Shown piece by piece: positions 40,697 through 43,163 of a stretch of DNA of 64,000 nt. The stretch is from NCBI RefSeq assembly GCF_003352065.1, contig NZ_CP025803.1, positions 558,001 through 622,000 of the forward strand. Reading direction: 5' to 3'. The DNA is from Sulfitobacter sp. SK011 (GTDB taxonomy: Bacteria > Pseudomonadota > Alphaproteobacteria > Rhodobacterales > Rhodobacteraceae). A model generated the notes under the pieces. The model did not search any database, was not told where the DNA came from, and worked only from the letters and a program-made list of their open reading frames with translations. Position 1 is the stretch's first letter. Each line of letters opens with the position of its first letter. The position numbers and the translations under genes were made by a program.

Positions 40697-41704
40697 ATGA
40701 ATGAACAGCTGGCCTATACCATTGAAGTGTTCGCAAACGGCCTGATGGCGGGGGTGCTTTACGCGCTGGTCGCCCTCGGGTTTGTCCTGATCTACAAAGC
40801 ATCCGGGATCTTTAATTATGCCCAAGGGGTGATGGCGCTGTTCGCGGCGATGACTCTGGTGGGCATTCAGAACGGACAGGTCCCGTTTGCGCATCTGATC
40901 AATGCGATCTTTGGCACGGAGGTGCATCACTTTGGCTGGCACGTGCATTCGTTCCTTGCCATTGCGCTGACGGTTGTTGTGATGATTGCGCTGGCCTGGA
41001 TGGTGCAGAAGTTCGTGTTCAGACATCTGGTGGGCCAGGAGCCGATCATCCTGTTCATGGCGACCATCGGTCTGGCCTATTTCCTCGAAGGGGTGGCGGA
41101 CCTGATGTGGGGGTCCGAGATCAAGTCGCTGAATGTATGTGCAGCCGAAGGCACCTGTTTGCCGCAGGGCATGAATGTCTGGCTTGAGGGTACGACATAC
41201 GAGGCGCTGGGCTATGGGTTCTTTATTGATAATCTTGATATCGTGGCCAGCATCGTTGCGGCAATCCTGGTGATCGGGCTGGTGATGTTTGCGCAATACA
41301 CCAAGCAGGGCCGCGCGATGCGGGCTGTGGCCGATGACCATCAGGCGGCACTTTCCGTTGGTGTGTCGCTGAATTTCATCTGGGTGCTTGTGTGGTCGCT
41401 GGCCGGGTTTGTCGCCTTGGTTGCGGGCATCATGTGGGGCGCGAAATCAGGCGTGCAGTTTTCGCTGTCGCTGATCGCTTTGAAAGCATTACCCGTGTTG
41501 ATGTTGGGCGGTTTCACCTCAATCCCCGGTGCGATTGTTGGTGGGCTGATCATTGGCGTGGGTGAAAAGCTGTTCGAATTCCTAATCGGTGCGCCCTACC
41601 TCGGTGGGGCCACGGAGAACTGGTTTGCTTACATGTTGGCGCTCTTGTTTTTGGTGTTCCGTCCGCAAGGCTTGTTCGGGGAGAAGATCATTGAGCGGGT
41701 TTAA
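40697..41704 (+). CDS. ABC transporter permease, LivH type
   Basis: A 335-residue permease with about eight to nine membrane helices. The family pattern is LYALVALGFVLIYKASGIFNYAQGVMALF near the N-terminus and the cytoplasmic loop AVADDHQAALSVGVSLNFIW, followed by GGFTSIPGAIVGGLIIGVGE. It has a longer periplasmic insert than typical LivH (about residues 155-180, with two Cys in NVCAAEGTCLPQG). Start ATG 40697 has GGTGGAG upstream. Its last 14 bases overlap the start of a small membrane protein gene. Confidence 0.92.
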   Translation: MNEQLAYTIEVFANGLMAGVLYALVALGFVLIYKASGIFNYAQGVMALFAAMTLVGIQNGQVPFAHLINAIFGTEVHHFGWHVHSFLAIALTVVVMIALAWMVQKFVFRHLVGQEPIILFMATIGLAYFLEGVADLMWGSEIKSLNVCAAEGTCLPQGMNVWLEGTTYEALGYGFFIDNLDIVASIVAAILVIGLVMFAQYTKQGRAMRAVADDHQAALSVGVSLNFIWVLVWSLAGFVALVAGIMWGAKSGVQFSLSLIALKALPVLMLGGFTSIPGAIVGGLIIGVGEKLFEFLIGAPYLGGATENWFAYMLALLFLVFRPQGLFGEKIIERV

Positions 41705-42050
41705 GCGCTTTTTTCTTCGATCTGCCCGCAAGCCCTTTTGGGAGCGCGGTGGGCAGACGTCGGAATGGCCTGGTCTGATGCAATTTCTGTCTGGCCTGCT
41801 GTGTTTGGGAATTGCCTATGTGTGGGCCAATGCCATCCTGACCCATGCCGCACCGCTGATTGGAAATCTGGCCGGCAAAAGTGATTGGTTTTGGGCATAC
41901 GCGGAAGTTGCAATCAAGACCGGTATATTCTGGATCGCAGGCCTTTTTCTGGTATTGATCGGAGGGGTACAATTGTTGTTTGTGCTGGCAGCAAAGTCAG
42001 GCGAGCGTATTGCAAAACGGGTTCTGCCCAACAAGAAAAAGGACGTCTGA
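41691..42050 (+). CDS. Small two-helix membrane protein inside the ABC operon
   Basis: A 119-residue protein that I do not recognise from any named family. TTG 41691 is the likely start: GGGGAG lies seven bases upstream and the gene overlaps the LivH-type stop by 14 bases. The product starts basic (SGFKRFFLRSARKPFWERGG) and has two clear hydrophobic segments (about residues 31-51 and 75-98), then a basic tail ending KKKKDV-like. The gene stops directly before the LivM-type start (TGAATG). Its place between the two permease genes and the coupling on both sides argue for a transporter accessory subunit. Confidence 0.75.
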   Translation: MSGFKRFFLRSARKPFWERGGQTSEWPGLMQFLSGLLCLGIAYVWANAILTHAAPLIGNLAGKSDWFWAYAEVAIKTGIFWIAGLFLVLIGGVQLLFVLAAKSGERIAKRVLPNKKKDV

Positions 42051-43163
42051 ATGTTCTATCGTGAAGCAGGCGATTTCAGCACGACCTACGCCGAGGATCA
42101 ACAGACATTCCCGATCAAGTTTGATCGGTATCGTTATTACGTCGTGCTGTTCATCGCCATCTTTGTTGTGCCGTTTGTGGTAAATGACTACTGGGTCAAC
42201 TCGCTGCTGATGCCGTTCCTGATCTATGCGATTGCGGCGATCGGGCTGAACATTCTGGTCGGATATTGCGGACAGGTCAGCCTTGGCACCGGCGGGTTCA
42301 TGGCGGTGGGCGCGTATTCCTGTTATAAATTCATGACCGGCGTGGACATCTGGTGGGGCGGTGAATTGCTGTTCCGGCTGCCGGAATTCAACATTATTTT
42401 GAGCGTGATTATGGGCGGGGTCATGACGGCCATCGTAGGTGTGCTTTTTGGTCTGCCAAGCTTGCGGATCAAAGGATTTTACCTCGCGGTGGCGACACTG
42501 GCCGCACAGTTCTTTCTGGTTTGGCTCTTTAACAGGGTGTCCTGGTTCTACAACTACTCCGCCTCCGGTCAGATCAACGCGCCGGAACGCGATATTCTGG
42601 GGGTGCTGATCACCGGACCAAGCACGGCGCCTTGGGCGACCTATCTGTTTTGTCTGTTCTTTACGATCATCTGTGCGGTCATTGCGCGCAACCTGACGCG
42701 CGGCGCATCGGGGCGTAAATGGATGGCGATCCGCGATATGGATATTGCGGCCGAGATTATTGGGGTGAACCCACTGCGCGCCAAGCTGACGGCCTTTGCG
42801 GTGTCATCATTCTTTATCGGCATATCCGGTGCGTTATTCTTTTCTGTCTATTTGGGGGCTGTGGAAGTGGGCGAGGCGTTTGGCATCACCAAGTCGTTCC
42901 TTGTGTTGTTCATGATCATCATCGGTGGCCTTGGCAGCATCTTTGGCAGCTTTGCCGGGGCGGCGTTTCTGGTGCTGTTGCCTGTGGTGCTAAAGGTGGT
43001 CGGCGTCGATTGGCTGGGCTGGCCCACGGACATTGTGGCGCATCTGCAATTGGTGATCGTGGGCGCATTGATCATCATCTTCTTGATCGCTGAACCACAC
43101 GGGATTGCGCAACTGTGGCGCGTTGCGAAAGAGAAACTGAGATTGTGGCCGTTCCCGCATTAG
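42051..43163 (+). CDS. ABC transporter permease, LivM type
   Basis: A 370-residue permease with about nine to ten helices. Family motifs are IAAIGLNILVGYCGQVSLGTGGFMAVGAYSCY, GLPSLRIKGFYLAVATLAAQF and the loop AIRDMDIAAEIIGVNPLRAKLTAFAVSSF. The N-terminal 35 residues before the first helix are longer than usual. It begins right after the small membrane protein stop. It forms the second half of the membrane pore with the LivH-type protein. Confidence 0.93.
   Translation: MFYREAGDFSTTYAEDQQTFPIKFDRYRYYVVLFIAIFVVPFVVNDYWVNSLLMPFLIYAIAAIGLNILVGYCGQVSLGTGGFMAVGAYSCYKFMTGVDIWWGGELLFRLPEFNIILSVIMGGVMTAIVGVLFGLPSLRIKGFYLAVATLAAQFFLVWLFNRVSWFYNYSASGQINAPERDILGVLITGPSTAPWATYLFCLFFTIICAVIARNLTRGASGRKWMAIRDMDIAAEIIGVNPLRAKLTAFAVSSFFIGISGALFFSVYLGAVEVGEAFGITKSFLVLFMIIIGGLGSIFGSFAGAAFLVLLPVVLKVVGVDWLGWPTDIVAHLQLVIVGALIIIFLIAEPHGIAQLWRVAKEKLRLWPFPH

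Follow-up and report, generated by a model that had tools for sequence, protein, structure and literature searches.

A small reading frame between livH and livM of Sulfitobacter sp. SK011 as a probable local form of a genus-wide bridge frame, fused to a membrane-protein gene

Why should a reading frame of 119 codons lie between the two permease genes of an ABC transporter operon, overlapping the one and abutting the other, and what would its product do there? The question is raised by a stretch of 64,000 nucleotides from Sulfitobacter sp. SK011 (NZ_CP025803.1, positions 558,001 to 622,000; hereafter the window), in which the operon runs in the order AMP-dependent ligase, LivG-type ATPase, LivH, small ORF, LivM, substrate-binding protein (SBP), LivF-type ATPase, and PaaK-like ligase. 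The features of the junction are collected in Table 1.

Table 1. Features of the livH-livM junction, in positions of the window.
Feature	Position	Strand	Remark
Small ORF	41691-42050	+	TTG start, 119 codons
LivH-type permease gene	40697..41704	+	terminal codons hold the small-ORF start signals
GGGGAG Shine-Dalgarno-like site, within livH	41678..41683	+	7 bases 5' of TTG
TTG start codon	41691..41693	+	formed by livH Ile codon ATT (ATT GAG)
First 29 codons, the bridge part	41691..41777	+	weak coding signal; outside the Marivivens match
Core, residues 30-119	41778..42047	+	two hydrophobic helices, gene-like codon usage
Segment common to the Marivivens protein, residues 58-84, GxLAGxSDWFWxYAEVxIKTxxxWxAG	41862..41942	+	
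AAGGA, probable livM ribosome-binding site, within the small-ORF end	42039..42043	+	read from sequence
Small-ORF stop TGA, abutting the livM ATG at 42051	42048..42050	+	
LivM-type permease gene	42051..43163	+	

A preliminary description of this DNA had reported a TTG start preceded by GGGGAG, an overlap of 14 bases with livH, a stop abutting livM, two hydrophobic stretches, and basic N- and C-terminal ends, and each of these particulars was confirmed. Hydropathy of the predicted protein peaks at residues 28-46 (modest, with a Kyte-Doolittle value of 1.62) and at residues 82-100 (2.57), and a structure model of low confidence (pLDDT 63, from a two-row alignment) places two helices at residues 26-60 and 65-111. 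No match to the small protein was found in the PDB and, where membership of a described family is taken to mean E <0.001 or a score above the curated cut-off, nothing significant was found in Pfam, NCBIfam, PHROGs or PADLOC, the best match being one to Pfam at E 0.43.

While the transporter is widespread, the small protein is not. At E <=1e-100, livH was found in 60 of the 62 genomes of the genus, including 59 of the 61 other than SK011, and a LivH match at E <=1e-60 was found in 287 of 394 family genomes. The small protein was not found in any of the 97 other relatives searched by protein, 57 of them members of the genus, and a search for the DNA of the small ORF in the other 61 genus genomes gave nothing but matches of 31 and 21 nt. 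A source elsewhere in the genus was also considered and set aside, the DNA search having returned only the ORF's own place and these two short matches, which were taken as chance. In total, 138 livH-livM junctions were read, 61 from 60 genus genomes (G007 has two) and 77 from other genera. The small protein is missing from the other 60 genus junctions, including those of L032 and L033, where LivH is 97.3% identical and the spacers measure 75 and 79 nt; a search for the same small gene at the same position, as had been proposed, thus came back empty. Given that 59 of the 61 other genus genomes retain this livH and that the protein turned up in none of the 61, it is no conserved subunit of the transporter, and the earlier suggestion of an extra subunit that the transporter needs is not sustained. 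The small gene seems to be an occupant, particular to this lineage, of a translational bridge that is itself conserved, and not a standard part of the transporter. One livH ortholog (G025:C1:481099-482085) is listed with an in-frame TAG and may be a disrupted copy or reflect an error in sequencing.

Conservation of the reading frame had been named as the decisive check, and here the outcome is divided: relatives with the operon do not share the protein, yet they do keep its frame open. Among 60 genus junctions with a gap of at least 20 nt (shorter gaps and L008, with no livM in reach, were left out of this count), the frame that begins at TTG stops within -3 to +14 of the livM ATG in 58, and exactly at the livM start (0 or +1) in 45; in the two exceptions, L062 and L065, it ends short of livM. 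Genus spacers of less than 200 nt are open in this frame in 52 of 52 cases as compared with 22.8 expected from shuffles, with a product of 5e-9 over 16 spacer clusters; spacers of related genomes are not independent. Frame +2 offers no control because a stop inside the livH tail closes it in all 60 junctions. The spacer between livM and the SBP gene served instead, and in 24 loci (6 of 30 without an SBP start in reach having been dropped) 36 of 72 frames are open, as counted by hand from the listing, with the best single frame open in 15 of 24. Outside the genus, 15 of 25 TTG frames extend to livM, where 4.5 would be expected, and 10 of 25 stop short; some of these frames run antisense to a reverse-strand SHOCT-like gene, and since antisense codon structure may favour openness near such genes, weight is put on the short spacers. 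At L038 and L039 the TTG frame is open though a hydrophobic ORF sits in another frame.

The sequence so spanned varies widely within the genus, and palindromic repeats are present in many spacers. The bridge frame reads through such repeats in the short spacers of L033, L041, L048, L053, L059, L067, L074, and L086, and the short-spacer repeats are of at least three kinds (GGGGCGCTGCCCC..., GGTGCGCA...TGCGCACC, and GTGGGTTTCACCCAC...). At L045, a bridge frame of 183 codons crosses a repeat of the short-spacer type and goes on into an ORF that is hydrophobic and shows four helix-like stretches. Accessibility is lower at the livM start region (0.41 over 61 loci) than at that of the SBP gene (0.59 over 54), a weak comparison because the open starts of SBP genes may reflect high expression; the lower value agrees with a dependence of livM on coupling and is suggestive, not proof, of it.

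Additional evidence comes from the codons in which the bridge begins. The tail of the LivH protein stays GEKIIERV, or near it, while its codons change synonymously. In all 60 genus rows with a GEKIIERV-type tail, the glycine is encoded by GGG and the second isoleucine by ATT, which makes the TTG. Among the 77 rows from other genera, 31 have a gene of the KLIAI type (described below) directly after livH, and all of these carry ATC and GGC, as do all four of the rows in which livM follows directly, with ATT in 0 of these 35 rows; arginine is encoded by AGG in 30 of the 31 and 3 of the 4, respectively, giving GAGAGG or GAAAGG before the next start. The 42 other-genus rows with no adjacent gene comprise 25 with ATT (22 of them with GGG for glycine) and 17 with ATC, hence no TTG, and the codon rule is therefore strict in one direction only. 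L088, with a different livH tail, was left out of the codon tables. In a LivM tree built quickly from 135 rows (3 of 138 were left out for having no livM, or a LivM piece <200 aa), the association of TTG with the lack of an adjacent gene is represented by nine supported independent pairs, of which a mean of 7.9 point the same way and 0 the opposite way (median p 0.008). Joint recombination of livH tail and slot may lie behind the codon association and could mimic selection. In two plasmids of Rhizobiaceae, livM starts 4 nt beyond livH and the tail is GGC...ATC...AGG, while a Roseovarius plasmid is exceptional in carrying ATT with GGC; there the TTG frame ends after 63 codons and the 321-nt spacer holds another ORF. 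Tail codons and tree pairs thus lend comparative support to the TTG start, and the view that a small membrane protein, not described before, is positioned for coupling has held up.

We consider it probable that the small ORF is the local form of a genus bridge frame that couples livM to livH, fused to a gene for a small membrane protein. Comparison itself bears out the signals for starting, a frame that stays open in relatives, the place of the stop, and a core that is coding. From these we infer that coupling operates in vivo: ribosomes would initiate at the TTG inside livH, at a place set by GGGGAG and the ATT isoleucine codon, and would traverse the spacer and terminate at the livM start, such that translation of livM is coupled to that of livH. 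LivH and LivM would benefit from coupled synthesis, and growth of the spacer would be tolerated given a bridge frame. The history would be one of insertion and fusion, in which a small two-helix gene related to one in Marivivens came into the slot and was joined in frame to the bridge start, and the 119-aa product would be made, and presumably accumulate, together with the transporter. For the protein itself, the role of an optional passenger or modulator in the membrane seems to us the likeliest, rather than that of a required subunit.

The slot between livH and livM is occupied differently elsewhere. In other genera it holds a two-helix protein of ~60-94 aa with the pattern M.KLIAI.NVIAWSGFWAFGYLAL..., here named KLIAI-type, which was recognized by sequence motif in 46 of the 76 junctions from other genera that have livM within reach (e.g., L029, L005, and L105). 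No Pfam family is matched by those members that were scanned, and no NCBIfam family by the single member compared with that database. A KLIAI profile matched in 0 of the 62 genus genomes and, in a class-wide sample, found one match among 190 genomes, in the same family (matches in G306). That the small ORF is a diverged KLIAI protein was considered and found unsupported (hhalign probability 0.3%, E 0.18). The KLIAI-type protein fits the idea of an extra subunit better than the small ORF does, and is a candidate accessory subunit. At L135, a truncated KLIAI-type start runs in frame into unrelated sequence, forming an open frame of 302 codons to livM.

Within the genus, where slot ORFs of at least 60 aa start at or after the TTG, 8 of 10 junctions encode hydrophobic proteins, a small bias judged from hydropathy alone. 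These ORFs are mostly unrelated to one another; similarity links L045 to L056 (E 2e-11) and L062 to L123, a locus from another genus (E 7e-5). The slot of L062, and with it the related L123, concerns a peptidase C39-like, soluble-looking protein (Pfam E 0.0002, just short of the cut-off). Soluble-looking ORFs are also found at L010 and L030, presumably glyoxalase/VOC-like, and at L160, which we take to be zinc-ribbon-like. At L004, L015, L020, L028, L102, L109, L126, and L129, the livH-livM slot holds a small gene on the reverse strand in which a SHOCT-like start is accompanied by two hydrophobic stretches, and L129 has two such genes; two of the SHOCT-like slot genes gave E 0.002 and 0.004 against Pfam SHOCT, below the cut-off. 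A broader and more tentative idea, possible though we would not lean on it, is that the junction is a cradle, in which the synonymous codons closing livH serve as an evolvable switch between a bridge start and hand-over to the following gene, and in which varied small membrane proteins, this one included, have repeatedly been captured or born. The bridge would have to stay open and translated, and therefore DNA landing there would be expressed at once between two nascent membrane proteins.

The evidence that part of the small ORF is a gene lies in its core. By codon usage, residues 30-119 carry 0.378 bits/codon and residues 1-29 only 0.108, as compared with 0.34-0.48 for seven neighbouring genes, these neighbours sitting inside the training set of a model built on the long ORFs of the window. 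The frame of the small ORF runs open through the spacer in 3.7% of 300 dinucleotide shuffles. Moreover, a search of 394 family genomes found that an 85-aa ORF in a MAG of Marivivens sp. Ww150 (L152:3950-4207) matches the small protein at E=4e-9. Over 53 aligned codons, identity at the three codon positions is 0.60/0.62/0.34, different codons encode 14 of the 24 identical residues, and dN is 0.55, with dS not estimable. The best Pfam match of the Marivivens ORF is PsbJ (E 0.0028), at 18 bits below the cut-off of 30. Gene-like codon usage in the core and one clear relative make it probable, as far as comparison of sequences can tell, that the small ORF encodes a real and constrained protein.

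Marivivens gave the one clear relative. Two peptide patterns scanned against 84,980 species' genomes gave the Marivivens relative as sole match, and an earlier scan with six patterns gave none; because both scans require a near-exact short peptide, remoter relatives may exist. The small protein matched in 51 of the 394 family genomes at E <=0.1, the best besides G000 and G380 reaching 0.0016, and these weak matches, many of them within long ORFs, were taken as chance (loci L141-L146 were left out). A third match, L155 (E 0.004), was dropped as lying inside a 701-aa ORF on the opposite strand. A class-wide search with the Marivivens ORF gave four genomes besides G000, at E 0.0025-0.008. A mobile or viral origin was also set aside, as no plasmid match was found for the small protein or its Marivivens relative and the A2 profile found none in viral contigs.

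An alternative that we judge unlikely is that the small protein is an accessory subunit, binding LivH and LivM and tuning or stabilising the transporter much as AcrZ acts on AcrB; KdpF of the Kdp pump is a parallel accessory small protein. The site between two permease genes with start and stop matched to them, the two hydrophobic helices, and the hydrophobic bias of the long genus slot ORFs would all suit such a role, but the protein was not found in the other genus genomes searched, and its Marivivens relative lies at a locus unrelated to livH-livM, with different adjoining genes (presumably an ATPase-like gene and an HrpB-like helicase gene), in a genome that is not among the family genomes listed with a LivH match at E <=1e-60. 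Less probable still is an independent small gene of ~90 aa with its own ATG at 41778, to which the TTG bridge would be incidental: the coding signal does start near residue 30 and the Marivivens match at residue 37, but no good ribosome-binding site is seen before 41778, whereas the TTG has a well-spaced site and the genus retains the codons from which it is made. A chance open frame in a non-coding spacer, with no functional protein, would suit the great rarity of the protein and a core GC of 0.504, lower than the neighbours' 0.54-0.61, but was rejected as very improbable on the gene-like codon usage of the core and on the Marivivens match, with its 53% identity over 45 aa and third codon positions least identical.

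Under the preferred reading of a bridge frame fused to a membrane-protein gene, the junctions form a natural series in which an intercistronic frame varies freely in sequence while start, frame, and stop are kept, and therefore one can test what coupling between the subunits of a single complex is for. They show the synonymous sites of one gene matched to what comes after it, and the slot is a defined place in which to watch small membrane proteins enter an operon. A narrow literature search found no description of the livH-livM slot. Small membrane subunits of the AcrZ type, as treated in the accessible part of one source (PMC7267776), resemble the small ORF in being small hydrophobic proteins possibly near a transporter; the small ORF differs in not being conserved with its transporter. 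The KLIAI-type protein likewise is small, has two hydrophobic helices, and lies between livH and livM, but has no detectable sequence relation to the small protein and has its own start after livH. The Marivivens ORF shares the SDWFW/YAEV/IKT core and two hydrophobic stretches, but is without the 29-residue lead and at its own, unrelated locus. With regard to coupling, the portion of one study available to us (PMC10666635) reports that coupling between gene pairs drops sharply with distance and that short gene overlaps are enriched among subunits of complexes. The junction is like the termination-reinitiation coupling treated there in that stop and start either overlap or adjoin and both genes specify subunits of a single complex, and unlike it in that a third frame, of changing sequence, lies in between, overlapping or abutting each of the coupled genes. 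Finally, a review, in the part accessible to us (PMC12548453), holds that short ORFs may deliver ribosomes and that mycobacterial MIRUs insert yet leave genes coupled. As in those cases, a frame in inserted DNA joins a downstream start; here, the start signals lie in synonymous codons of the upstream gene, the inserts belong to no single repeat family, and some of the contents are membrane proteins.
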